64,000 bases of DNA from Kordia periserrulae. GTDB lineage: Bacteria; Bacteroidota; Bacteroidia; Flavobacteriales; Flavobacteriaceae. A model generated the notes under the pieces. It was not told the origin of the DNA, made no database searches, and was given only the letters and a program-made list of their open reading frames with translations. The translations under genes were made by a program, and so were the position numbers. The stretch is from positions 62,001-126,000 of the forward strand of contig NZ_QBKT01000005.1 of the NCBI RefSeq assembly GCF_003054265.1. The letters run 5' to 3'. Each line of letters starts with the position of its first letter. Position 1 is the first letter of the stretch. This document shows positions 31,708-52,344 of the stretch, piece by piece.

Positions 31708-32814
31708 GTGATCAAATTACACGATAAATATTTCAAGAAATTCATCTCTCAAGAACAAATTCAAGAAGCTGTTGCGAAAATGGCGATGGAAATTGCCAAA
31801 GATGTCAAAGAAGAGCAACCTATCTTCGTTGGAATTTTGAACGGTGTTTTTATGTTTTTTGCTGATTTTATGAAAGTTTACAATTATCCGTGCGAAATGA
31901 CTTTTGTAAAATTATCATCCTATCATGGAACCTCTTCTTCGGGCGAAATTAAAGAGCTGATTGGGCTTTCGCAAGATATTGAAGGAAGAACGGTGATTGT
32001 TTTGGAAGATATTATCGACACGGGAAACACACTCGACGAATTGCACGCGATTTTTAAGGCAAAAAAAGTAAAAGACTTTAAAATTGGAACTTTATTTTTT
32101 AAGCCAGAAGCTTATCAAAAACAACACAAAATAGATTATATCGGAATGGAAATTCCCAACGAATTCATTGTCGGGTACGGACTCGATTATGACGAATTGG
32201 GAAGAAATCTACCCGAAGTATACCAATTACACACAAACAACATGATTAATTTAATTTTATTCGGAAAGCCAGGTGCTGGAAAAGGAACACAGGCAAATTT
32301 CTTAAAAGAAAAATACAATTTAGTGCATATCTCAACAGGAGATGTGTTTCGATACAACATAAAAAACGGAACAGAATTAGGCGTTTTAGCAAAATCCTAT
32401 ATTGATAAAGGCGATTTGGTTCCTGACGAAGTAACGATTAACATGTTGCAAGCGGAAGTGGAGAAAAACCCAGAGGCGAACGGATTTATCTTTGATGGTT
32501 TCCCAAGAACCACCGCGCAAGCCGAAGCACTCGATAATTTCCTAACAACAAAAGACATGGGAATTTCTGCAACAATCGCATTAGAAGCAGATGATGAAAT
32601 TTTGATTCAACGTTTGCTAGAGCGTGGAAAAGTAAGTGGAAGAGCAGACGATCAAGACGAAGCTAAAATTAGAAATCGTTTTGACGAATACAATCAAAAA
32701 ACGGCTCCGTTGATTGATTTTTACAAGAAGCAAAACAAATTTCACAGTGTGAACGGAATCGGAACGATTGAAGAAATCACTGTGCGTTTAAGTTCAGTTA
32801 TTGATGAATTATAA
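31708..32814 (+). CDS. adk: hypoxanthine phosphoribosyltransferase-adenylate kinase fusion
   Basis: A 368-residue two-enzyme fusion. Residues 1-170 are a hypoxanthine/guanine phosphoribosyltransferase with the PRPP loop VIVLEDIIDTGNTL (about 96-109), which salvages purine bases. Residues 179-368 are a short-type adenylate kinase with the P-loop FGKPGAGKGTQ (185-195), DGFPRTTAQAEAL and a compact lid (LLERGKVSGRADDQD). The second domain starts with its own Met (MINLILFGKPG), so it could also be made alone. The start codon is GTG (GTG ATC AAA TTA). The fusion is known in flavobacteria. Salvage and nucleotide balancing are thus in one chain, beside purK-purE. Confidence 0.95.
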   Translation: MIKLHDKYFKKFISQEQIQEAVAKMAMEIAKDVKEEQPIFVGILNGVFMFFADFMKVYNYPCEMTFVKLSSYHGTSSSGEIKELIGLSQDIEGRTVIVLEDIIDTGNTLDELHAIFKAKKVKDFKIGTLFFKPEAYQKQHKIDYIGMEIPNEFIVGYGLDYDELGRNLPEVYQLHTNNMINLILFGKPGAGKGTQANFLKEKYNLVHISTGDVFRYNIKNGTELGVLAKSYIDKGDLVPDEVTINMLQAEVEKNPEANGFIFDGFPRTTAQAEALDNFLTTKDMGISATIALEADDEILIQRLLERGKVSGRADDQDEAKIRNRFDEYNQKTAPLIDFYKKQNKFHSVNGIGTIEEITVRLSSVIDEL

Positions 32815-36348: not shown

Positions 36349-37023
36349 TTACAATCTCATAGCTTTCTTTGTTTCCAATACCTTACCATCAGCAGTAATT
36401 TTGATTAAATAAATGCCTTTTGGTTGTTTTGACAAATCAATTTGCGGAAGTTTGGATAATTGTGTGTACGTATTTGATTGTAATAACTGTCCGTTCAAAT
36501 TAAACACTTCTGTAGTGAGTTGCGTGTAATTTTCATGCAGCTGTAGCTGAAACAATCCAGTTGCGGAAGGATTGGGAAAAAGTGAATTCAATCGTTCTTC
36601 TCCTTGAATTCGTTTAAAATTGGATGAAGTTTCTTTTTCAATTTCGGTTCCGACACAGCCAAAACAACAGCAACACAATTTTACACAATGAATAGTTCCC
36701 CCATAACCAACAACTTCAACGGTATCCATTTTTTCCCAACTATATAAAAGATTGACTTTTATTTCTTTTGCATCACTTACGGGAATTTCTTTTGTTTCAA
36801 AACCTAAATAGGAAATTTCTAAAATATCGTTTGGTTCCACTTCAATAGCAAAGCGTCCGTGTTTGTTGGTAATGGTGCCGTTTTTAGAATTTTTCACAAT
36901 CACATTCGCGTCCGCCAATACGTTTTTTTCTTCGTCATAAATAGTTCCTGTCAATGTACGTTTCTGCGCAAAGCAAGTGATGGAAATACTGAAAAATAAA
37001 GTAAAAAGTAATATTCGTTTCAT
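36349..37023 (-). CDS. short carboxypeptidase-regulatory-like protein with cysteine cluster and T9SS type A tail
   Basis: A 224-residue secreted protein. After a signal peptide (ends CFAQ), residues 22-95 form a CarboxypepD_reg-like beta domain (LTGTIYDEEKNVLADANVIV, then ILEISYLGFETKEIPVSD), the same type as at the start of SusC-like receptors. Next comes TVEVVGYGGT, like the EVVVVGYG segment that precedes the plug of SusC proteins. No plug follows; instead there is a cluster of six cysteines (113, 117-120 and 123: CVKLCCCCFGC). Residues about 145-224 are a type A sorting domain (LFPNPSATGLFQLQL ... QPKGIYLIKITA). It lies downstream of the chimeric A2M gene on the same strand. Confidence 0.85.
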   Translation of the reverse strand: MKRILLFTLFFSISITCFAQKRTLTGTIYDEEKNVLADANVIVKNSKNGTITNKHGRFAIEVEPNDILEISYLGFETKEIPVSDAKEIKVNLLYSWEKMDTVEVVGYGGTIHCVKLCCCCFGCVGTEIEKETSSNFKRIQGEERLNSLFPNPSATGLFQLQLHENYTQLTTEVFNLNGQLLQSNTYTQLSKLPQIDLSKQPKGIYLIKITADGKVLETKKAMRL

Positions 37024-37435: not shown

Positions 37436-40400
37436 CTATTCAAACGTCAAACGAATTCCTTTGGTATGACTTCTCAATTCAGGCGCGTACATGCTTTCAA
37501 TCGTGGTAATTCCGTTGGAGAAGTTTCCTGTGTTGTTGACGCGGACTTCATATTCTAAGATAAAAACACCTTTTGGAATGCGGTCGAAAAAGAAATTGGT
37601 ACTCGCATCGCGTGTGCTTTCATAATAACCAATACCATCTTGCCATTTGTATTCCGATAGTGTAGTTACAGGCTCCAAACCAGCCGCACGCATGTCTTTT
37701 AGGTGAATGAACTCCACTTCTTTTTCGTTTCGAATCGTTAAACGTACCGTGATTTTATCGCCAATTTTTAATGTTTTCTTTTCAATTGGCAGCAAAGTTT
37801 CTTCACCATTACGAGTTTCTTTTACGTATAAGGATTTTGATACTTGCAACTTGGAAGCTTCACTTTCTGTAACCTTATCCAACGTTTCAAAATATTGCCA
37901 GTACACAGCACCAAAACCTGTCGTTTTTCCATTGTTTTTTACGTTGATAGTCGCTTTGTCTTTGGTAATTTCATCTTTGCGCCAAGCAGTTTTAAAATAG
38001 CCTGTACCTGCTTCTTTTTTGGTTTCGTCAAGTTTTTTGGTACTGATTTTTTCCGTGCCGATGGTAAACTTCGTGTTGTCTTTGATAGAAACAAATTGCT
38101 TCGGATTCAACAATAAAGCATAAATCGCTTTGGTCGTTGCTTTGGTGGTTGCCCATTGATTTCGCTGTTTTTGTTGCAACAACCACAATTGCAATTCTTG
38201 AACAATGGTGTCGTTTTTGGTAATTTCTGCAAAGGCTTCAATCAACAACGCGTGCGCTTCTACATTGCGAGCACTAGCATATCCTTGGTTGGAAAGTTCT
38301 TTCCAGTACATACCATTTTCTTCCGATGTTACCGCAGCTTCTTCCAAAGCCGTCATGATTTTGTTAGCTTCTTTCTTCCGATTCATTCGCGCCAACGTCA
38401 ACGCCAACATTGCTTTTTGATTAATAGGTAAGAGCAACCATTCGTCTTGCAGATGGTCTAAATACACTTCCATTGCTTCTTGTGCGTTTGCTGGAATCTT
38501 CATAAAATCTGCATTCATGCTTCGAGTATATAGATACGGAATTTGTTTGGCGTAAGCAGTAGCATTTGGCTTGTCACGCAGTTTAGCGTAGGCTATCAAA
38601 AAGTGTGTATCCACATAGCTAAAAGCATCTTCAATAATATCTTCAAAAAATAACTTTTCTGATGTTTCTGTTATCATATTCAGTTTCACCAAATGCGCAA
38701 AGGTTTGTAATATATGTAACGTGATGTAATGATTTTCTTTTCCGCCAGCAAACCAAACAAATCCGCCCGATTCGTTTTGCAAATCGTTTAACTTTAACCA
38801 CATTTCTTTTTGCATTTCCTCGGTAGCTTTTTCGTCAAAAAGTGTAGTGAGTTGTTGTTTTCTGGCAGTTTCAGAAGCGGCATCGCGCACCCAAGGTGTT
38901 TCCGCTAATAACAAGGATTTGAATTCAGGATTTTTCTCCAAATCTGATACCAATTGTCCGTTGGCTTTCCACGCTTCAAAGACTTCTTTGATTTTTGGCG
39001 AACTTTGTAAAATATGCGCTGCAATGGCATTGGCATACAAGCGCGCAAAGGTTTGTTCGGCACATTCATACGGATATTCCATTAAATATGGCAACGACTG
39101 AATGGCGCTCCACGTAGGATTGGACGTATACTCTAAGGTCAATTGATGATTTTGTAACGTCGAACTCGTATTGTTTTTGAGTTTTTCAAATGTGATTGTT
39201 TTTTGTTCGCCCGCTTTTACCAGAAACGGTTTTGCTTCTGTAAGTAACAGACTATTTTTAAGAACAGGTAACACACTTTCTTCGCCATCAGAGAAATTTT
39301 CCGCCGTAGCGAGCACTTTGTACTGAATGGCTTCTATACCTTCTGGGATATAGAGTTTCCATGACAGTGTGGCATTTCCTTTTGCGTCTACCGTAAATGC
39401 TTTGTTTTTTTCGGAAAGATGCACTTTTGCGTCGATGGATGTTTGTGTTTGCGCATCAAACAAACGTAATGACGCAATGCCTTTGGTCACTTTGTTTTGT
39501 AAATTGACCACTTTCGTGGAAATGACAATCGTATCTTTTTCACGCAGAAAACGCGGCATATTTGGCACAACCATCAATTCTTTTTGCGTCACCGCATTTT
39601 TAAGAATGTTTCCGTAAATACCATCTTTTTGATGTGCAAATAATTGAAATTTCCATCGCGATAATGCTTCGGGAGCATCAAATTCAATCGCAACATTACC
39701 TTCAGCATCCGTTCGTAAATGTGGATAGAAAAAAGCGGTTTCTTGTAAATTTTTACGAGTTTCTATGTTGTCAACATCTTCTTCGGTGATTCCGACAATA
39801 ACCTCAACGCCGTCAACCATTTCTTTTCGTGTACCGTATTTTGTGGTAATAAGAACGACTCCGCCAGCGCCACGACTTCCATACAAAGCTGTTGCCTGCG
39901 CATCTTTTAAAACACTTAATGTGGTAATGTTTTGACTGGATAAATTTCGAAATACATTTTGATCTACAGGAACACCGTCAATTACAAATAAAGGAGTTGT
40001 TTCGCCTTTTAGACTTGACCAACCACGAATGACAATTGTTGAAGATTGTCCAGGTTGGCCACTTCCTGTTTCTATATTGATACCCGCAGCCATTCCTTGC
40101 AACATTTCGTCTAAAGAACCCACAGGAACATATTGTACAGAAGTGCCGTCAACAGTAGCGACTGCATATCCTAAAGATGCTTTTTGTTTTGAAATACCAT
40201 AGGCAACCACGGTAACTTCTTCTAATTCACTACTGCCAGATAAACGAACGCTGATATTTTTTTGATTGCCAACTTTGACTTCTTCTGGATTAAATCCTAC
40301 ATAACTAAATACTAATACTTGATTTGAAGAAGCATTGATACTGTACAAACCGTCAAAATCGGTAGTGGTTCCAACGTCCGTTCCTTTTAACATCACATTG

Positions 40401-43400
40401 GCGCCAGGTAACGGTAATCCTGATTCGTCCAATACGTGACCAATGATATTTCCTGAGTAATTCGTAGTGTTTTTGTTGTGTTTTTGCCACTTAATGGTTC
40501 TAAGGTATTGATCGTTTGCATTTTTAGTGTTTCGGAAGCTCAGTCCAAACCAATTTAATTGTAAATGTTTGTACAGTTTTGGAATGTAATACTGAGCTTT
40601 TAAGTTGTAAAATTCGTCTGAATATTTGTTTTTGAAACCTTGTGCTCGCAACTGCGGAGTTTCATAGTATTGTTTACGAAAGTCAGGTAGATTCGTGTTC
40701 CAATCATGCGTTACAAATTGATCGAGTGATTCATCATACATAGACGCTAACACTTCTGCATTGCTTGGGTTGTTTTCTAAATCTAAGATTTTAAACTGCC
40801 AAGTTTCAGGCTGTCCAGGACGTAATTTGTTTCGAAATGTGGTGGTTTCAATATTGAGATAGTTTTTACCTTCATACAAACTGATAGAAAATTCATCTTC
40901 ATAAAATGTATTGAATTTCACAAAACTCATTCGGACAGTAACTTCATGGGTAAATCGTTTTTCAAGCGGAATTTTAATGATTTTAGAACCTTTTTCAATA
41001 GATTCTATCCCAAAGAAAAACGGTTCGCCTTTATGAAATGCTTGTACATGCACATTTAGTGGTTCATCGCGCAAAGCGGTTGCTAATTTCACTACAATAT
41101 ATCCGTCATTTTTGTAATTGCTGTTGCGTATTTCATAGTCGAAAAGTTGGTTATTCGCCAAATATTGATCGTTTGCATCGACGAGAAAAAAATGTTGTGT
41201 TTCGGTAACGCTGTCTTTTAGTTTTTCATCATATACAGCGGTTTCTACAGCATACGTTCCTGATTTCCATTTGGAAACATCCAACGTAAACGTCGTTTTA
41301 TTACCAGTGTTAAAAGTTTCTTGTGCTACTTGTGTTTCTTTTTCTGAATTGTTTTCGCTTTTATCGTATTGTATGTGAGGAAATTGAGTAATGAAAGTTT
41401 CTTTAGACATGCTATGATACTCTGGAATTTCCCAAGGTCGTTTTTTTAAAGTACGCGTCGGATTTTTGAGTTTGTAGATTTTGAAATGTCCATTAGCCGC
41501 AACGTTGACATCGTTGATATCTTTCGTCGTAATTTTTAGGGATAAAGGAACTTTTTTGTTGGTTTTTCGTGGAAAATCTACATATAAATCGAAACCCTTA
41601 CGACTTACACTGACTGTTTTTTCAGCAGTTTGTGTTTCGCCGTTGCTATCAGTAATTTCAAGGGAAACCGTGTATTGATACGCATATACTTTGTCTGCAT
41701 CGACAGTTTCATCTATCAAAGCCACGAAAGGAATGCTAAAGTTTCCTTTTTCGTCCGTACGTGTTTCAGCTTCTTTAACTATTTGACTTTTTTCGTTGTA
41801 ACGACCGTATGCATTGATAACTCGTGAAATTTTATAGGAAACTTTGGCATTGGAAACAGCGCTTCCGAGTAACGCTTTAGCGGTTCCTGTTACGTTTATA
41901 CTGTCATTGAAAGCAACATTACTTGTTACAGGATCAACAACTACTTCAAAGCGTGGGCGTTTGTATTCTTCTACTTTGAAGGTAAATCTTTGTTCGTGGA
42001 ATTCGTCAATGGCGTCCCAAAACGGATGCTCGCCCTCGTATTCATAATCTTGATCAACATTGATGGTAAAATCGCCCGTAACGCTGTTTTTCGGAATTTT
42101 GAAAGAGCCGCTAAACGAGCCAAATTCGTTGGTTTTTAAACGCATAAATTTCAGTTCTCCATCTTCAGAATATACTTCCACTTCACAAAAAACATTAGGA
42201 ACTACAGCACTTACACCATTTTTTTGTTGCAAAACCACAACTTTAAACTGTACGGTTTGTCCAGGTCGATATATAGCTCTGTCGGTAAATATGAACGGTT
42301 TTGCTTCCCAATACAATTCTTCATCTTTTTCATACTTTTTTTCAAGAGAAGTCGATGCAGTATACAAGGTATCACCTTTGTAAATAATGTATTTTTCAAT
42401 TCTTTTTTTACGCGCACGCTTATTGATGGTCGCCTGACCGTATATGTTGGTATATTCAGTTTGATTGACCGTATTTGTAAGATTCGAAATTTTAATTTTT
42501 GCTTTATGAATCGGTTTTCCGGTGTCGCGATGTACAATGGTATGTACATTTTTATCATTAAATTCCGTGATAACTTCTGCCAAATTCGTTTTTTGAAGGC
42601 TGTTATACGAGATGACATTGGTGGCTTTTTGATTTTTGTCAACATCCGATAATACTACGAGATAACTTCCTGTTGCGAGTGATGGAATGCTAATTTCGGT
42701 CGTATGTTCGTGATAATCTTTTGGAATATTTATAACATACGTTTGCTGAAGAATGGCTTTTTTATGCTTGATGAAATGTGCAATTACCGAATCGCGTTTT
42801 CTGTAATAGATGCGTTTTAAAAAACCGTGCGGAATGCGATAGGCTTTTAAAAATAAGGTGTCAACGTTTCTAGCTTTTACCTGTGCTAGTGTAGGTTTGT
42901 CTGAAATACTGAAAGCTTCCGTAGTAAACTTAATGGACTTTTCTTCAATCTTTTTTTGAAGCAATGCACATTTAATGCCGCCTTCTGCATTTGGATAGTT
43001 GGCGGACATCTTTTTTACAAGAGACAATGCTTTTATACGCGTGTCATTCTCTATATGTTCAAATTTGTACTGACTATACTCTGAAATGTATAAATAATGA
43101 TTGGCAAGTTCGTAATTGATTAAAGCCTCTAAAGGATTTCCCTGATATGTTTTCGCCAATTGTTGTAAGGCAGTAATATAATATGCACTTTGTTCGCGCG
43201 TCGTATATATTCTGTTGTAAAAAAACTTAAAACGTTGCAATACAATATCAACATGTGCATTTTTGTTGCGAAGTGCTGCTTTTTCGAGTTTTTGAAAAAG
43301 ACGTAGTGTATTGTTCATTGCAAAAACTTCATCCTTCTGTTCAGGGAATTGTTGTTGTAAAAAAGTGGCTGTAGGAGCAAAATCTTTTTCGCTAGCTTGA

Positions 43401-44044
43401 TACTTCTCGTTGCTTTTGTACGTGTATGGAATGTCCGTTTTGTAAAAATCGAGCGCGTTGTGTGCTAAAATTTCAAACAAACTTGAACGATACATTTTCA
43501 TGGTTTCCTTTCCTTCTAAAAGCAACATGTAGTCTTCTACAGGAAGTTTTAAAAGAGCTTCTTCACGTGCAATGGAATGTTGATAATGCTTGTGAATTTG
43601 TGTCACAAAAGTTTTGATATCCCACAACTCAATATCACTAGGAATCGTTTCAAAATCCACCGAAGAACGATTGCGAATTTGGTATTGATGTCTATATAAA
43701 TATTGCATCAACAGTCGCGCATACATATTTTCCAAAATAACATTCGCAGGAAATGCTTGTGCATTCATAGTTTCACGAAGACTCTGTAATACCTGCACTT
43801 CTGAATCTTCCGTAAGGAGCAACGAAAATTTAGCACGATAGAGAAAGCTTTTTACAATCTGCGATGTTTCTTGACTTTTTTCAGCTTCTTGATATATTCG
43901 CTCTACGAGTTTTTGAGCCGAAGCAAACTTTCCTTCCAACTCTAAATCTTCTACTTTTTGCCAGTTTTTGTCAAAATTGTATTGTGCCAGGCTGCATTGT
44001 ACACACAAAAACATCACAAAACAGATACTATATATTTTTCTCAT
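37436..44044 (-). CDS. giant alpha-2-macroglobulin family protein with inserted SusC-like TonB plug
   Basis: A 2202-residue exported protein. A signal peptide (ends SLAQ) precedes a helical, repeat-like region to about residue 400. The MG2 domain is near 586-606 (FTDRAIYRPGQTVQFKVVV). Residues about 1199-1270 are a CarboxypepD_reg domain (GHVLDESGLPLPGANVMLKG) and 1275-1404 a SusC-type plug (VVAYGISKQ, SLDEMLQGMAAGINIETGSG, STIVIRGWSSLKGE, VLKDAQATALYGSRGAGG). No beta-barrel follows. The A2M domain begins at 1430 (RKNLQETAFFYPHL). The thioester site is Cys1661-Ala-Glu-Gln1664 and the C-terminus is receptor-domain-like. A2M proteins trap proteases. In bacteria they guard the periplasm. The plug sits where a bait region is expected. 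A paralogue lies upstream. Confidence 0.92.
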   Translation of the reverse strand: MRKIYSICFVMFLCVQCSLAQYNFDKNWQKVEDLELEGKFASAQKLVERIYQEAEKSQETSQIVKSFLYRAKFSLLLTEDSEVQVLQSLRETMNAQAFPANVILENMYARLLMQYLYRHQYQIRNRSSVDFETIPSDIELWDIKTFVTQIHKHYQHSIAREEALLKLPVEDYMLLLEGKETMKMYRSSLFEILAHNALDFYKTDIPYTYKSNEKYQASEKDFAPTATFLQQQFPEQKDEVFAMNNTLRLFQKLEKAALRNKNAHVDIVLQRFKFFYNRIYTTREQSAYYITALQQLAKTYQGNPLEALINYELANHYLYISEYSQYKFEHIENDTRIKALSLVKKMSANYPNAEGGIKCALLQKKIEEKSIKFTTEAFSISDKPTLAQVKARNVDTLFLKAYRIPHGFLKRIYYRKRDSVIAHFIKHKKAILQQTYVINIPKDYHEHTTEISIPSLATGSYLVVLSDVDKNQKATNVISYNSLQKTNLAEVITEFNDKNVHTIVHRDTGKPIHKAKIKISNLTNTVNQTEYTNIYGQATINKRARKKRIEKYIIYKGDTLYTASTSLEKKYEKDEELYWEAKPFIFTDRAIYRPGQTVQFKVVVLQQKNGVSAVVPNVFCEVEVYSEDGELKFMRLKTNEFGSFSGSFKIPKNSVTGDFTINVDQDYEYEGEHPFWDAIDEFHEQRFTFKVEEYKRPRFEVVVDPVTSNVAFNDSINVTGTAKALLGSAVSNAKVSYKISRVINAYGRYNEKSQIVKEAETRTDEKGNFSIPFVALIDETVDADKVYAYQYTVSLEITDSNGETQTAEKTVSVSRKGFDLYVDFPRKTNKKVPLSLKITTKDINDVNVAANGHFKIYKLKNPTRTLKKRPWEIPEYHSMSKETFITQFPHIQYDKSENNSEKETQVAQETFNTGNKTTFTLDVSKWKSGTYAVETAVYDEKLKDSVTETQHFFLVDANDQYLANNQLFDYEIRNSNYKNDGYIVVKLATALRDEPLNVHVQAFHKGEPFFFGIESIEKGSKIIKIPLEKRFTHEVTVRMSFVKFNTFYEDEFSISLYEGKNYLNIETTTFRNKLRPGQPETWQFKILDLENNPSNAEVLASMYDESLDQFVTHDWNTNLPDFRKQYYETPQLRAQGFKNKYSDEFYNLKAQYYIPKLYKHLQLNWFGLSFRNTKNANDQYLRTIKWQKHNKNTTNYSGNIIGHVLDESGLPLPGANVMLKGTDVGTTTDFDGLYSINASSNQVLVFSYVGFNPEEVKVGNQKNISVRLSGSSELEEVTVVAYGISKQKASLGYAVATVDGTSVQYVPVGSLDEMLQGMAAGINIETGSGQPGQSSTIVIRGWSSLKGETTPLFVIDGVPVDQNVFRNLSSQNITTLSVLKDAQATALYGSRGAGGVVLITTKYGTRKEMVDGVEVIVGITEEDVDNIETRKNLQETAFFYPHLRTDAEGNVAIEFDAPEALSRWKFQLFAHQKDGIYGNILKNAVTQKELMVVPNMPRFLREKDTIVISTKVVNLQNKVTKGIASLRLFDAQTQTSIDAKVHLSEKNKAFTVDAKGNATLSWKLYIPEGIEAIQYKVLATAENFSDGEESVLPVLKNSLLLTEAKPFLVKAGEQKTITFEKLKNNTSSTLQNHQLTLEYTSNPTWSAIQSLPYLMEYPYECAEQTFARLYANAIAAHILQSSPKIKEVFEAWKANGQLVSDLEKNPEFKSLLLAETPWVRDAASETARKQQLTTLFDEKATEEMQKEMWLKLNDLQNESGGFVWFAGGKENHYITLHILQTFAHLVKLNMITETSEKLFFEDIIEDAFSYVDTHFLIAYAKLRDKPNATAYAKQIPYLYTRSMNADFMKIPANAQEAMEVYLDHLQDEWLLLPINQKAMLALTLARMNRKKEANKIMTALEEAAVTSEENGMYWKELSNQGYASARNVEAHALLIEAFAEITKNDTIVQELQLWLLQQKQRNQWATTKATTKAIYALLLNPKQFVSIKDNTKFTIGTEKISTKKLDETKKEAGTGYFKTAWRKDEITKDKATINVKNNGKTTGFGAVYWQYFETLDKVTESEASKLQVSKSLYVKETRNGEETLLPIEKKTLKIGDKITVRLTIRNEKEVEFIHLKDMRAAGLEPVTTLSEYKWQDGIGYYESTRDASTNFFFDRIPKGVFILEYEVRVNNTGNFSNGITTIESMYAPELRSHTKGIRLTFE

Positions 44045-45956: not shown

Positions 45957-48900
45957 CTAATCCACTTTCACACGAATTCCTTCGCTATGACTGCTAAATT
46001 CCGGCGCGTACATGCTTTGAATGGTGGAAATTCCATTGGAAAAATCACCTTTATTGTTGACGCGTAAGTCATATTCAAATACAAAAACACCTTTTGGTAA
46101 ATAGTCAAAGAAGAAGTTCGTGCTTGCATCTTTGGTGCTTTCGTAATAGCCCAAACCATCTTGCCATTTGTATTGTGATAACACGTTTACAGGCTCAAAT
46201 CCTGCGGCGCGCATGTCTTTTAAATGAACAAATTCCATTGGTCGGTCGTTTCGAAGTTCAATGCGAACTCTTACCAAATCGCCCAATTCCAATTGCGTGT
46301 TTTCGTCGATTTCGGTAATGACTTCTCCCGAAGCATCATACGTTCGTTTGAAGAGTTTTTTGCTCAATTTTAACGACGTTTCTGCGGTTGTGATTTTGTC
46401 CAAATCTTCAAAATATTGCCAATACAATCCGCCCCAAGCGATACCTTTCCCAGTTTTGGTTAAGGTTACTTTTGCCATTTCAGGTTGTACTTCACTACCA
46501 TTCCACGAAGTTTTGAAATAACCTGTGCCAGCTTCTACTTTTACATCTTCGAGTTTTTCAGGCGAAATTTGCTGATTGCCCACCGTCACCTCAACCATGT
46601 CAGTTACCGAAAGCCAATCGCTTCCTTGCAATAATAACGCATACACAGCGTCGGCAGTAGCTTTGGTCGTAGACCAGCGATTGGTTTGCTTATTTTTCAG
46701 CAGCCAAATCTTTAAATTATCTACGGAAGTGATATCATTCGAAATTTCCGAAAATGCTTCAATCAATAACGCTTGCGTTTCAATCGGCGCCTGATACCAA
46801 TACCACGAACGTGTGTTTGCTTTCCAATACATGCCCAATTCGTCACTCGTAATGCTGTTTTCTTTGAGCGATTGTAGAATTCCGTTTGCCGTTTTTGCAC
46901 GCTTGTTTCGATGTGCAATCAACGCCATCAATCCTTTGGAATACAAACTGCGACTTAGCCAATACTTGTCAATTTGACCTAAATAATAATCGCGAATTTT
47001 TTGTGCTTCTTCCGATAAGCCAATTTCTTCAAAAAAGCTTCGCATGTACAAATAGTGCAATTGCGAATACGATAAATGGTCTTTTGATAAATCCACGCCT
47101 TTGTTGTATTTGCGAATGTCCTTGTATTCTTTGATGAATTCAGCATCCAAATATTGAATTGCTTTTCGCAATAGTTGTTGCGTGTCTTCATCTGTTTTTT
47201 CGAATACATTTAGCTTTTTTAAATGTCCAAAACCAGTGATAATATGTTGTGTGATGAATCGATTGTCGCGTCCGCCAGAAAACCAAGGGAATCCGCCAGA
47301 AGACGATTGCATTTGTTGTAATTTTTGTAGCGTGCGAGTTTCTTCATGTTGCATGCGATTGAGATCGAATAACAACGCAATTCGTTTTTTCTGAGCCGTT
47401 TCCGATTGCGCATCGCGAACCCAAGGTGTTTCTTGTAAAATCAAGGATTTTAATTCCTGATTCTTTTCTAAATTGCTCAACAACGCATCTGACGATTTCC
47501 ACTGATTGAACACTTGCTGAATTCTCGGATTGCTATTCGCGATGTGACTCGCCAATGCATTCGCGTAATAACGAGAAAACGTCTGTTCCGAACATTCATA
47601 CGGATATTCCATCAAATATGGCAACGCTTGTACCGCGTACCACGCAGGATTGGACGTAATTTCCAAACTCAGTTTATGATGCGAAAGTGTAGCCGATTTT
47701 GTTTCCGCCAATTTATCTAAGGTAAAGGTTTTTGTTTCGTTGGAACGAATCCACATTGGTAAGGTTTCCGTTACCAACATACGGTTTGACAATACTGGCA
47801 ACGCATTTTGTTCGCCGTCGCTATATTCGCCTGCTTTTGCCGTTATGGTGTATTGAATCGCTTGTAAATTCTTAGGAATGTATAGCAACCACGATACTTG
47901 TGTATTGCCTTTTGCATTTACAGAAAAGCTTTGAGAAGGTTCGCCCAAACGCGGAAATAAGGCAGGATTGATATCATTTCCCGTAAACGGATTAATCAGT
48001 TGCAACATCGCTTCTCCGTTGAGGTTTTTTTCTGAAAGATTTGAAATTTTTGTGCTAATCACTACCGCATCACCTTCGCGGACAAAACGCGGTGCATTTG
48101 GCAACACCATCAATTCTTTTTGCGTGACTGTGGTCAGCGTTTTGGTTGCCGAATGCAATTCTTTCGTATGTGCTAGCAACTGCAATTTCCACTTCGTCAA
48201 CGCTTCTGGAGTGGTAAAGGTAAACGATACATTTCCTTCGCTGTCTGTTTGTAGTTGTGGAAAGAAAAAGGCGGTTTCCTGTAGATTTTTTCGAGGAACA
48301 ATAGCTTCTTTTTGTGTTGTTTCGCCAATGCTTTTTGGGTCTTTAGCATTTAAAAGTGTGGCAACTGCAGTTTTTTTATCATTTTCTACTTCAACTGAAA
48401 AAGCCAATGCTTCTTCACTTTCTTCCTCAACCTCATCCATAACAACTTCTTCTGCTACAGGTACTGCCATTTTTCGTTCCACCATGCTGTTAGACTCATA
48501 AGCAATACCTTTTCGATACATTCTTCCATAACTAGAAAAATACAATCCAAACCAATTGAGTTGGTCAAAACGTTGCGGATTGTATACCACGCTTTTGTAT
48601 GGATTGAACGAATCACCAAAACGTGTAATATCAAAACTTCTACCCGCATTGATATTGAAATAGCTGTAATATACAGGCTTGTTAATCGGATTAAAATTCC
48701 AATCATGCGTTCTGAATTCGTCTAAAGAAGCATCGTACATACTTGCCAATAGTTCAGCAGTTACTTTTTCTCCTTTAGCACCTTTGACTTTAAAACTCCA
48801 AGTTTCTTCTTCGTTTGGTTTTAGTTTGTCTCTAAAAGTAGTCGTTTCAATAGTCAAGTCCGACGGCGGATATTCCACCATTATTAAAAGTTGCTTATTG

Positions 48901-51900
48901 ATAAAGCTGTTAAAAATGGTTGCAGAACAATGAATTTGGAATCCGCCTTCATCTTCCTTTTTAACAGGAATTCGCAAGGTTTGTTTGCCATCTTCTAGTG
49001 AGATAACGTACGAGTTTACAATTTTTTTATTTTTTTCAACATCAACCGTTACAGTCATGAGTTTGCTTGCCGATTTTAAGGTAAGTACCACTTCTTCATT
49101 CGGAAGATAGGAATCTTTATCAGTAGCCACTTCCAGCAAGGCATTGTCGGCCGCTGTTTTGTCTTTTGAGTTGTGAACTTCTGTATATACAATGTCTTTT
49201 ATTTCATAACCATTGGCATCGGTAGTACTAATTTCAACTACATATTTTCCAGATTCCCAACGTTTAAGTTTGCCGAGTTCGAGTTGTGCTTTTTCACTTG
49301 TATCGAAGTTTTCGTCAAATACTTTTTTACCTTTTTTCCACGATTTAAAATCTTGTTCGTCTTCTGAATACGCTTCATGTGGAAAGAGTTTTTTAAATTC
49401 TTTTTCTGAAATGGACAGGTAATCTGGAACTTTGTAAGGACGTTCGCGCAACACACGATTTGGCGCTTGTAATTTGTGAATGGTCACCGTACCTTTTGCA
49501 GAAACTTTTTCACCATTTAGATTTTTTGTGATGATTTTTACCGTGTAATCACGTTTGGAGGCATCTAGTTTTTTATCAATAACCACATTGGCTTGTAAAC
49601 TGTGATAGCCTACTCGCACATCGGTGGAAGCACTACGCGTTTCTCCATTGATATCGGTAATATCTGCCGTAATGGCATAATCGAATATTGGTAATAATTT
49701 TTTTGAAGTACTAGCGTCAGGAATCGCTTTGAATGTAATTTCAAAATTCCCATTGGCGTCCGTAATGGTTTCACCACTTGTAATTTGCTGAGAGCTCGAA
49801 TTGATATATGGATATCGCCAATAAATCCATTGCGGATAGCGAGGCGTTCGTTTTACAGAATAGGTTACTTTGGCATCCGAAATAGAACTTCCTGCAAACG
49901 CCATAGCATTTCCATTCACAGCTACAGTATCATTCACAGCAAAGGTTTTGGTAATTGGTAAAAATTTGGCTTCAAATTTTGGACGTTTGTATTCTTCAAC
50001 TGAAAAATAAGTGCTTCCCAAATTGTCTTTGCCTTTGGAAGCATGTATGGAAAAATTTCCTGTTAAGCCATTATTCGGAATGATAAATTCACTTTTAAAC
50101 GAACCGTATTCGTTGGTCACTAAAGATTGTTCACTTACCACTTGGTAATTGGCATCGCGCAATAGTACGGTTACTTTTTCATTTGGCAGAATTGTGGATT
50201 TTGTGCCTTCTTTGCGAACTAAAATTCCTTTGAAGTGCGCTGTTTGTGAAGGTCTGTAAATACTTCTGTCGGTAAATAAGAAAAGAGTTTCTTGCGGCTC
50301 TATTTTATCTGAAATAAATCGTTTTGTATAGGAGAAATCATCAAAATAAGCGATATCATTCGCTGTGGTAACTTTAATATTAAGGTCATAAAAACGATCG
50401 TTGTAGTCCGCTTCTAATACAGCACTTCCCGTTGCATCTGTAGTTTGTGTTTGCGTTTCTCTTGCGCCTCTATATTTTTTTTGATATGAAAATTCTATGG
50501 CTTGATTCTCTATAGGTTTTCCATTATTTCGATTGGTCAACTGAAAAATATATTCACTAATTGTTTTTTTGTGCGTAATAACAATATCAGTCACTTGAAT
50601 GATATCGGTAGCAAAAAACGTTTTGTGGAGTTCTTCCGTATGCGAAGCTGTTAGCATATAAAAACCGTTTTGCAATGGCGGAACGGCTATTTCCGTGCGG
50701 TGAAAATGATAATCATTTTCAGTAGGCAACGTAGCATTCCAGTTTTTGCTTACAGGTAATTTGTTGATGAAAGCTTGTTGTTCTTCTTTTCTGTATAATT
50801 TGCTGTAGTTTTTTAATTGCTCGTGCGTTATCCTACGAACAGTAAAAAAGAGTTTTTCTACATTTTTATAGTTGATGGACATTCTAGAATAATTGCCAAT
50901 TGGAATGACACTTTCTGTAGTGATTGAAAAGTCTTTTTTTAGAATGATTCTTTTAAGATTTTGACATCTTTTAGCAGCAGCACTTTCAGGAAACTTAGTA
51001 ATAACTTCATCACAAAGTGTTACTGCTTTTTGATATTTCCATTGGTGTTTTTCAGGATTTTCTGTGGAGTACAGGTCTCCTAATTCCTTATACAATTGCG
51101 CCGTTTCAGCGTCATACATTCCTGAGTATGGATGTGTATTGTATGTTGTTTTTTCATTTTGAAAAATCTCAATGAGTTTTTCTTTGGCATTGTCAAAATT
51201 TGCTTTTGCTACGATATATTGTAAGCGTTCAATATTGACATTAATCAACGCTTCTGGCGATTTGTCTTTTAAGTGAAAACGAATCAAGTCTTGATAGAGT
51301 TGCAGCGCTTTAAATTCCCGCGAAAGCGAATCTTTTGTTGTTATATTTAATTCCGCAAATAATTCCGCATCGCATAGATATTCTTCGTTGTCAATTTTGA
51401 AAGTTTCTTCGGGTTTTGTGATGGTGATTTCAGTCGATTTGTAAAATTCTAAGGCATTGTGCGCTAAAAAATCATACACCGTTGGGCGAAATTTTTTAGA
51501 CCCTTCTTGCATGATGAGAATAGCATCAAATTCACTTAAATCTACTTTTTGTAATTGATTGGCATTTTTCAACGATGCGTCTAAATGCATTCCAATTTCA
51601 GTAAAGATTGTTTGTAAATCCCACGTTCTGAAATCGTTTGTGTCAACCTTTTCTTTGGTTTTTGTGCGATTGTAAAATTTATAACGATTCGATTTGAAAT
51701 ACTGCCAATACAGCTGTCCTAAAATGCTTTGCAAGATGTTTTTGGTGGGAAAGGATTGTGAGGCAATTTCCGCTTTTAACGAATTGATAATCGTCAATTC
51801 CGCATCTTCTTCTAGCGTCAATTGATAATTGGATTTGTGTAAAAAAGCTTTGACAATTTGCGGATTGTTTTGCTCTTTTTTAGCCAACGCATAAATTTCA

Positions 51901-52040
51901 GAAGCCTTTTTAAAAGCTGATTTTGTCAATCCCTTTTTCTCTAAATTGGTCACTTCTTTCCACAGTTGCACATACTTTTCTTGTGCGTTTGCGAATTGAC
52001 TAAATAATACAATCATAAATATGGCGAGTACGTTTTTCAT
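45957..52040 (-). CDS. giant alpha-2-macroglobulin family protein
   Basis: A 2027-residue exported protein, paralogous along its length to the chimeric A2M encoded downstream. The start is set at 52040 (MKNVLAIFMIVLFSQFANAQ), a clean signal peptide; the in-frame ATG at 52097 adds 19 non-signal residues. The MG2 domain contains FTDRSIYRPSQTAHFKGIL, and the A2M domain begins RKNLQETAFFFPQL. The thioester site is Cys1483-Ser-Glu-Gln1486 in YPYECSEQTFSRYY. Before the A2M domain, where its paralogue has a plug, there is an acidic linker (EEVVMDEVEEESEEALAF) that could be the bait. The C-terminus matches the paralogue (YKWQDGLGYYESTKDASTNF). Likely a periplasmic or surface protease trap. Confidence 0.93.
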   Translation of the reverse strand: MKNVLAIFMIVLFSQFANAQEKYVQLWKEVTNLEKKGLTKSAFKKASEIYALAKKEQNNPQIVKAFLHKSNYQLTLEEDAELTIINSLKAEIASQSFPTKNILQSILGQLYWQYFKSNRYKFYNRTKTKEKVDTNDFRTWDLQTIFTEIGMHLDASLKNANQLQKVDLSEFDAILIMQEGSKKFRPTVYDFLAHNALEFYKSTEITITKPEETFKIDNEEYLCDAELFAELNITTKDSLSREFKALQLYQDLIRFHLKDKSPEALINVNIERLQYIVAKANFDNAKEKLIEIFQNEKTTYNTHPYSGMYDAETAQLYKELGDLYSTENPEKHQWKYQKAVTLCDEVITKFPESAAAKRCQNLKRIILKKDFSITTESVIPIGNYSRMSINYKNVEKLFFTVRRITHEQLKNYSKLYRKEEQQAFINKLPVSKNWNATLPTENDYHFHRTEIAVPPLQNGFYMLTASHTEELHKTFFATDIIQVTDIVITHKKTISEYIFQLTNRNNGKPIENQAIEFSYQKKYRGARETQTQTTDATGSAVLEADYNDRFYDLNIKVTTANDIAYFDDFSYTKRFISDKIEPQETLFLFTDRSIYRPSQTAHFKGILVRKEGTKSTILPNEKVTVLLRDANYQVVSEQSLVTNEYGSFKSEFIIPNNGLTGNFSIHASKGKDNLGSTYFSVEEYKRPKFEAKFLPITKTFAVNDTVAVNGNAMAFAGSSISDAKVTYSVKRTPRYPQWIYWRYPYINSSSQQITSGETITDANGNFEITFKAIPDASTSKKLLPIFDYAITADITDINGETRSASTDVRVGYHSLQANVVIDKKLDASKRDYTVKIITKNLNGEKVSAKGTVTIHKLQAPNRVLRERPYKVPDYLSISEKEFKKLFPHEAYSEDEQDFKSWKKGKKVFDENFDTSEKAQLELGKLKRWESGKYVVEISTTDANGYEIKDIVYTEVHNSKDKTAADNALLEVATDKDSYLPNEEVVLTLKSASKLMTVTVDVEKNKKIVNSYVISLEDGKQTLRIPVKKEDEGGFQIHCSATIFNSFINKQLLIMVEYPPSDLTIETTTFRDKLKPNEEETWSFKVKGAKGEKVTAELLASMYDASLDEFRTHDWNFNPINKPVYYSYFNINAGRSFDITRFGDSFNPYKSVVYNPQRFDQLNWFGLYFSSYGRMYRKGIAYESNSMVERKMAVPVAEEVVMDEVEEESEEALAFSVEVENDKKTAVATLLNAKDPKSIGETTQKEAIVPRKNLQETAFFFPQLQTDSEGNVSFTFTTPEALTKWKLQLLAHTKELHSATKTLTTVTQKELMVLPNAPRFVREGDAVVISTKISNLSEKNLNGEAMLQLINPFTGNDINPALFPRLGEPSQSFSVNAKGNTQVSWLLYIPKNLQAIQYTITAKAGEYSDGEQNALPVLSNRMLVTETLPMWIRSNETKTFTLDKLAETKSATLSHHKLSLEITSNPAWYAVQALPYLMEYPYECSEQTFSRYYANALASHIANSNPRIQQVFNQWKSSDALLSNLEKNQELKSLILQETPWVRDAQSETAQKKRIALLFDLNRMQHEETRTLQKLQQMQSSSGGFPWFSGGRDNRFITQHIITGFGHLKKLNVFEKTDEDTQQLLRKAIQYLDAEFIKEYKDIRKYNKGVDLSKDHLSYSQLHYLYMRSFFEEIGLSEEAQKIRDYYLGQIDKYWLSRSLYSKGLMALIAHRNKRAKTANGILQSLKENSITSDELGMYWKANTRSWYWYQAPIETQALLIEAFSEISNDITSVDNLKIWLLKNKQTNRWSTTKATADAVYALLLQGSDWLSVTDMVEVTVGNQQISPEKLEDVKVEAGTGYFKTSWNGSEVQPEMAKVTLTKTGKGIAWGGLYWQYFEDLDKITTAETSLKLSKKLFKRTYDASGEVITEIDENTQLELGDLVRVRIELRNDRPMEFVHLKDMRAAGFEPVNVLSQYKWQDGLGYYESTKDASTNFFFDYLPKGVFVFEYDLRVNNKGDFSNGISTIQSMYAPEFSSHSEGIRVKVD

Positions 52041-52344
52041 TCGTTTAAAAATTTGGTCAAAATGTAAAAATCTATTGTCTGTTATGTAAAACTTCAATCA
52101 AATTCTTTACGTATGTAAAATAAGGATTTTAATCATAACATGGTTTACTTCTGTGTTATTAATCGCAAAGAACATTCCAAGATGTAAAATGTTAAGATTA
52201 TTTTATAAAACAAATCCTTTTCGAAATAGTATCTTTGGAATGAAAAGTGATACATGTGTTGATAAAAAAACAAAGTAAAAGTATCGTTTGTAGTTTGTAA
52301 AATGGCAGACTACAATTTGAATTCTACAAAATCGAAAAAACGAA
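52041..52344. promoter_or_regulatory. divergent promoter region, A2M and TPR genes
   Basis: A 304-base AT-rich gap between two divergent starts. On the plus strand TATCTTTG (52230-52237) is a full -7 match, 107 bases before the TPR gene. On the minus strand TACATTTT, near 52065, is a partial -7 match close to the A2M start. Nothing else was recognised. Confidence 0.4.

Follow-up and report, generated by a model that had tools for sequence, protein, structure and literature searches.

The window analysed here, a stretch of 64,000 nucleotides from contig NZ_QBKT01000005.1 of Kordia periserrulae, carries on its reverse strand a gene for an alpha-2-macroglobulin (A2M), a family of protease traps, in whose bait slot the N-terminal module of a SusC-type transporter is found. 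The open reading frame starts with ATG, is uninterrupted and contains the thioester motif of the family. Pfam recognizes in it, in this order and always above the curated cut-offs, MG2 (65.5 bits), CarbopepD_reg_2 (65.6), Plug (57.1), A2M (58.9) and bMG10 (113.8). The features are listed below in window coordinates, together with a paralogous A2M gene of the same window; loci and genomes beyond it are referred to by our own handles (L and G numbers).

37436..44044, reverse strand: A2M gene, 2202 residues, SusC module in the bait slot (open reading frame list, Pfam, NCBIfam)
43985..44044, reverse strand: putative signal peptide, about residues 1–20, no lipobox seen (by eye)
42020..42295, reverse strand: MG2 domain, residues 584–675 (Pfam)
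39758..40540, reverse strand: bait slot, residues 1169–1429, 261 residues (83 in the paralogue; alignment with the paralogue and human A2M)
40208..40444, reverse strand: N-terminal extension (NTE), a carboxypeptidase-regulatory domain, residues 1201–1279 (Pfam, Foldseek)
40196..40225, reverse strand: TonB box LEEVTVVAYG, residues 1274–1283, opening a linker predicted to be disordered (about 1275–1308; motif, AlphaFold)
39857..40177, reverse strand: plug domain, residues 1290–1396 (Pfam)
39839..39928, reverse strand: SusC/RagA signature, residues 1373–1402 (NCBIfam TIGR04057)
39728..39757, reverse strand: RKNLQETAFF, residues 1430–1439, aligned with the human alpha'NT segment (profile alignment)
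39482..39739, reverse strand: A2M domain, residues 1436–1521 (Pfam)
39053..39064, reverse strand: thioester motif CAEQ, residues 1661–1664 (motif)
37478..37849, reverse strand: bMG10 domain, residues 2066–2189 (Pfam)
45957..52097, reverse strand: paralogous A2M with a bait of 83 residues, a natural comparison (open reading frame list, Pfam, alignment)

A SusC module in the bait slot

The insert follows the order of SusC itself, namely NTE, TonB box and plug. The NCBIfam model of whole SusC/RagA proteins, TIGR04056, matches residues 1200–1408 with an E value of 2.1e-78, but only over positions 3–210 of its 981; the 265 bits of this partial match fall below the whole-protein cut-off of 368, as expected without the barrel, while the signature model TIGR04057 exceeds its own cut-off. 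No outer-membrane barrel is found in the protein, as the coverage of TIGR04056 stops at profile position 210. The initial annotation, made from the letters alone, had described exactly this: a carboxypeptidase-regulatory domain and a SusC-type plug without a barrel at the bait position of an A2M. That observation is confirmed by the Pfam domain search, NCBIfam and the alignments with the paralogue and human A2M. The TonB box kept in the module had gone unmentioned there. The closest relative in the same genome is a SusC-type frame of 1040 residues, 62% identical and 34 kb away on the same contig; the next eleven are 41–49% identical, and 33 SusC-type matches were found in the genome altogether (E ≤ 0.001).

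The position of the module was established by two comparisons. Between NWFGL and RKNLQETAFF the window protein has 261 residues and its paralogue 83, which is the sole large length difference between the two; their identity otherwise amounts to 53% across the A2M segment, 44% over the part with the thioester domain, 60% at the C-terminus and 27–45% before the bait, with small gaps. The second comparison is with human A2M, whose bait we take to be residues 690–728, by means of a profile of 35 A2Ms drawn from 91 without a SusC-type domain. RKNLQETAFF aligns with the human residues that directly follow the bait (R1430 with R732, L1433 with F735), a weak match of 20 bits that is nevertheless in register, and this register places the insert in the bait up to its very end. 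These human residues lie in the alpha'NT segment, which is reported to pass through the central channel of native A2M, behind a bait of 39 residues (PMC9352918). An insert lying away from the bait, a possibility raised at the outset, is thus at variance with the alignment. A gene fusion or frameshift artefact was likewise excluded, as the frame has no internal stop and the module with its plug occupies the same place in seven of the ten other Kordia genomes.

AlphaFold gives the NTE a predicted local distance difference test score (pLDDT) of 91–97, the box linker values below 50 and the plug about 50–80, with 73–81 in the plug core. In Foldseek, the NTE superposes on the NTE of a SusC crystal structure (9hfj) at 1.1 Å with a TM-score of 0.93. 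Longer matches to SusC and RagA chains (33–44% identity, 91–126 columns) are found at a root-mean-square deviation of 5–9 Å, and the plug fold therefore rests on sequence more than on the model. The predicted template modelling score is low for both models (0.34 and 0.38), and because of this the placement of the module relative to the macroglobulin ring is not predicted.

RKNLQ at residue 1430 and CAEQ at 1661–1664 agree with the start of the A2M region and the intact Cys1661 and Gln1664 noted initially; the thioester bond is predicted from the CXEQ motif. No lipobox was seen at the N-terminus, which was inspected by eye and not with a signal-peptide program. Since this start resembles an ordinary signal peptide without a lipobox, the protein is probably located in the periplasm.

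Parts of the same module stand on other proteins of this genome. A VWA/YfbK protein (L142, G000:C2:235541-235978) starts with an NTE and the first half of a plug, and thus carries a SusC module on a non-transporter; frames of 630–650 residues with similar matches occur in G010 and G002. A peptidase of the M56 (BlaR1) type (L157, G000:C9:78169-78345) ends in the second half of a plug, complementing that of L142; a search of the open-access literature on M56 found nothing. The genome also has a third A2M (L003, G000:C6:302280-302528), an open frame of 1857 residues with CVEQ that is distant from the other two. Directly downstream of the window's A2M gene, 36349–37023 on the reverse strand encodes a 224-residue protein with a carboxypeptidase-regulatory domain and a sorting domain of the type IX secretion system. 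Further away, a single frame on the forward strand (31708–32814) resembles, by eye, a hypoxanthine phosphoribosyltransferase followed by an adenylate kinase.

Distribution and origins of the inserts

The survey covered 150 distinct bait slots from 80 named loci, stretches of relatives and an even sample of the phylum, including the two of the window; eight further frames were unusable. The named loci had been selected for resemblance in the A2M segment, irrespective of the bait, and are not a random sample. A SusC-type domain (at least 40 bits) is present in 56 of the 150 slots, so the layout is not the singularity that the initial annotation had implied. The relative L034, from 'Uncultured Kordia sp.', is 81% identical to the window gene in the A2M segment. 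In the even phylum sample, such an A2M occurs in 46 of 247 genomes (E ≤ 1e-30), and 43 loci yielded 40 proteins (L165 duplicates L036, an NTE carrier; L202 and L203 were left unread). Twelve of these 40 carry a SusC-type domain, nine within the same family and three (L188, L199, L204) in two other families of the class. At a softer limit, 148 proteins divide into 27 with NTE and plug, 17 with the NTE only, 11 with the plug only and 93 with neither. A census of the 150 slots with Pfam (E ≤ 0.001) returned CarbopepD_reg_2 in 48, CarboxypepD_reg in 45 and Plug in 38, with any other family in at most seven; the corresponding NCBIfam census (E ≤ 0.01) returned SusC/RagA in 67 and GldJ in five. The motif C.EQ is found in 133 of 148 proteins and is missing from the expected interval in 15, including L043. 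As the NCBIfam SusC models match such A2Ms, our guess is that some are probably annotated from their plug. Among the papers listed by searches of an open-access library, none links an A2M bait with SusC or a TonB plug in its title or abstract opening.

Traces of SusC extend into the 94 baits without a recognizable domain. A profile of eight SusC N-termini from the window's own genome, built with no bait included, reaches 6 bits or more in 29 of them, where shuffled sets give 0.1 each and sets of segments from elsewhere in the same proteins 0.3; at 10 bits or more, 19 baits remain against none in either control. The TonB box pattern occurs in half of the slots with a SusC-type domain (28 of 56) and in 23 of the 94 domain-free ones, where the A2M segment follows it at a median distance of 42 residues. 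Tyrosine at position 9, which is outside the search pattern, is found in 14 of these 23, and the plug motif AGV in 23 of the 94 domain-free baits. The motif patterns were drawn up after viewing the same baits, and they were tested again on 31 baits unseen beforehand (37 from L164 on, minus L207, L208, L210, L211, L217 and L218, which had been seen earlier). Among these 31, the TonB box occurs four times against 0.22 per shuffled set (none of 1000 shuffles as high), a stricter form of it twice against 0.035, and AGV three times against 0.14 (2 of 1000 as high). The baits are related to each other, and the motif counts are for this reason not independent events.

The tree of the inserts, in which 24 complete A2M inserts stand beside 70 SusC-type modules of other frames, not all of them verified as having a barrel, shows that such modules have more than one origin in the family. 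One clade for the complete inserts is rejected (log-likelihood difference 165, p of the approximately unbiased test 6.9e-5), although a quick tree had been viewed before the test and the bootstrap is not settled. Eight changes are required, at least three of which are forced by well-supported branches. The donors are under-sampled, because the SusC modules were drawn from nine genomes and chosen for their resemblance to the window insert. The eight Kordia inserts form one clade adjoining a SusC group of Kordia; in G020, the insert groups with a SusC of its own genome. A single ancestral plug insert that merely eroded was also considered; it is rejected by the tree test for the complete inserts and is at odds with the motif order of the short baits described below.

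Within Kordia, the insert equals the N-terminal half in conservation, with a mean identity of 0.60 against 0.52–0.53, and falls short of the A2M segment (0.80). Nonsynonymous divergence (dN) of the insert is lower than synonymous divergence (dS) in all seven pairs of the window gene with another Kordia gene, some regional dS values being saturated. Against the gene of G010 (L114), dS is 0.28–0.48 in the C-terminal part and 0.9–1.4 in the N-terminal half, with the switch near the plug, and recombination within the plug is likelier to underlie this mosaic than fast change of the insert alone. The latter is not needed to explain the low insert identity of this pair, as the N-terminal half is also divergent and dS falls from the plug on.

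SusC is not the only donor. Pieces of GldJ, a lipoprotein of gliding motility, occur in eight of the 150 baits (E ≤ 0.01), against 0.025 per shuffled set, and always correspond to residues 384–480 of the frame used, which was confirmed as GldJ with 930 bits (cut-off 458). The carriers belong to Nonlabens (L085, L094, L091), 'Flavobacteria bacterium BBFL7' (L076), Psychroserpens (L087) and Kordia (L207, L213, L115). In L085 and L094 the piece lies between NTE and plug, and in L087 it forms the end of the bait, with GldJ as a donor other than SusC. A single ancestral capture, later eroded, would also account for this. The bait of L178 matches 12 other places in its own genome (E ≤ 1; 10 frames), four of them below 0.01; the five frames that were read are all TonB-receptor-like and start with a carboxypeptidase-regulatory domain. 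That of L186 (G248) is chimeric, matching a tail-fibre-like frame of 3080 residues at 70% over 51 residues before continuing into a plug-like piece (by eye). A further carboxypeptidase-regulatory domain is common to L181, L182 and L184, identified by Pfam in L181 and by eye in the other two.

Possible roles of the bait module

The reading favoured here, to which we assign a probability of roughly 0.4, is that the SusC module is an integrated decoy, a bait copied from segments of the cell's own envelope that are exposed to proteases. The protein would be a snap trap, probably periplasmic, whose captured module (NTE, TonB box and plug) would display in the bait position those flexible segments that would be vulnerable to proteases in the cell's own TonB-dependent transporters. 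A protease would cut most easily in the disordered TonB-box linker or in the flanking linkers and break the chain, upon which RKNLQETAFF would retract and the predicted thioester at Cys1661 would capture the attacker. In the cited accounts, substrate sequences can take the place of the human A2M bait and retarget the trap, so that what cuts gets caught (PMC8267569), and the Ton box of SusC is flexible, the authors inferring that the plug may exit the barrel and be clipped (PMC7782687). Decoy selection would explain the recurrent envelope pieces, the selection acting on them and the indifference to motif order. Of the three options put forward in the initial annotation (the plug as bait, as a tether to a TonB-dependent transporter, or as a signal released on cleavage), the first is the most likely. 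Its interpretation is thus partly supported: the position in the slot stands on the alignments, and the role as bait remains conditional.

Several points weigh against a decoy. A SusC-type domain is absent from 94 of the 150 slots, three carriers of such a domain are without C.EQ (L128, L174, L176), and the paralogue's own genome yielded no donor for its bait. The bait classes cluster on the A2M tree, five classes needing 50 changes against 71.6 when shuffled; the history of the baits therefore combines inheritance and turnover, and much of their content is inherited, not freshly captured. IRG is not enriched in the 31 unseen baits (four against 1.9; 125 of 1000 shuffles as high). Moreover, short baits such as L095, L210 and L079 reverse the order of SusC. 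The box precedes IRG in 26 of 26 and AGV in 22 of 22 SusC modules, whereas in the short baits it comes second, after IRG in 13 of 14 cases and after AGV in 9 of 10. Erosion of a SusC module in place is disfavoured because it would not yield this reversal, and no simple history offered accounts for it. Folded domains are also poorer protease substrates than a disordered bait. In human A2M, a bait lengthened by 5–20 residues is reported to favour the collapsed form (PMC9352918), and under any reading the 261-residue bait would therefore have to be kept short by its folded domains. Finally, the cutting and trapping steps, like the location and decoy selection as the reason for capture, are what we infer from the sequence.

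A somewhat unlikely but serious alternative is that the bait slot is simply tolerant and takes in pieces of abundant families such as SusC, which persist by inheritance for some time before decaying, the module having no role of its own. Human A2M indeed functions with a wholly replaced bait (PMC8267569). SusC-type genes are numerous in this genome, which also bears the same module on the VWA/YfbK protein and the plug end on the M56 peptidase, and the tail-fibre-like piece in L186 fits an indiscriminate slot. Capture without a role is harder to reconcile with dN below dS in the insert, with a Pfam census that is nearly empty beyond SusC-like and other carboxypeptidase-regulatory domains, and with a TonB box that, although picked by its pattern, stands out from unconserved flanks in short baits. 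GldJ, a donor not known to be more than a single gene, also counts against it.

It is unlikely that the TonB box acts as a tether, in place of a decoy role or in addition to it, by binding TonB and so keeping the trap close to the import machinery, a possible point of entry for foreign proteases, with plug and NTE carried along or aiding the binding. The recurrence of the box in both kinds of slot and its tyrosine at position 9 would suit such a role, and deletion of the Ton box is reported to abolish the function of a SusC (PMC7782687). Yet the pattern is missing from half of the domain slots and from roughly three in four of those without a domain, inserts made of a plug alone (L049, for instance) are without a box, and plug motifs, which do not bind TonB, persist in the short baits as well.

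A broader proposal would regard the A2Ms of Bacteroidota as innate sensors with baits pieced together from envelope proteins of the same cell (NTE, TonB box and plug of SusC, a stretch of GldJ) and renewed by repeated capture, in which, where a box is present, a pull by TonB arms or springs the trap and couples it to the energized import machinery; taken as a whole, this is improbable. Still less probable is the trigger on its own, in which TonB would grip the box and draw the bait from the central channel, so that the trap is armed or sprung with no proteolysis. The box does lie in a bait linker predicted to be disordered, and bait retraction from the channel is the trigger proposed for human A2M by authors who ask about other disruptions (PMC9352918), but many relatives are without the box. 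That the plug is set free by the cut, to act as a signal or to occupy the barrel of a transporter in trans, is the least probable of all. The retained core motifs of the plug would suit it, and the NTE-only inserts (17 of 148) and the plugs shortened at their N-terminal side (L038, L041, L044, L052, L061) speak against it.

Little is known of the proteases that bacterial A2Ms encounter. If the bait copies attacked proteins, as the decoy reading holds, it would name what is under attack, genomes could then help to answer the question, and integrated decoys would have a bacterial example. As to the mechanism of A2Ms, a natural bait of 261 residues and two domains sits uneasily with the lengthening result for human A2M, and it offers a natural candidate for a non-proteolytic trigger via TonB, a question left open in that work (PMC9352918).

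Comparison with known systems

By its domains, motif and bait place, the window protein is a type I A2M; without a barrel, it is not a SusC. It shares MG2, A2M, bMG10 and CXEQ with the bacterial type I proteins YfhM (ECAM) of E. coli and Sa-A2M of Salmonella. The likeness to ECAM includes the bait flanks, which match by profile (E 2.5e-9), and a Foldseek match to 4ziq (E 2.1e-9), in which the domain arrangement is not modelled. ECAM is described as having a largely disordered bait and an inner-membrane anchor, with its gene often beside pbp1C (PMC4498604). The window protein differs in the SusC module of its bait and in a start where no lipobox was seen by eye; no penicillin-binding protein such as PBP1C (pbpC) was found among the twelve nearby window proteins scanned, which do not comprise every open reading frame of the window. 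MagD of P. aeruginosa, a type II protein, is also a periplasmic A2M with a bait, but it is reported to have no CXEQ and to be encoded in a six-gene operon (PMC5764988), whereas the window protein has CXEQ. In engineered human A2Ms, the content of the bait likewise selects the protease that springs the trap (PMC8267569, PMC9352918); those baits are man-made, with 32–39 residues and short extensions, and that of the window is natural, with 261 residues and two domains. SusC/RagA transporters (TIGR04056) have the same order of NTE, TonB box and plug, in front of a barrel that the window module lacks inside its A2M. The closest parallel to the proposed function lies in the integrated decoys of plant nucleotide-binding leucine-rich repeat receptors, in which a copy of the attacked protein is built into the sensor. 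These belong to another kingdom and to other proteins, and the likeness is our own analogy, which holds insofar as the A2M would act as suggested here.

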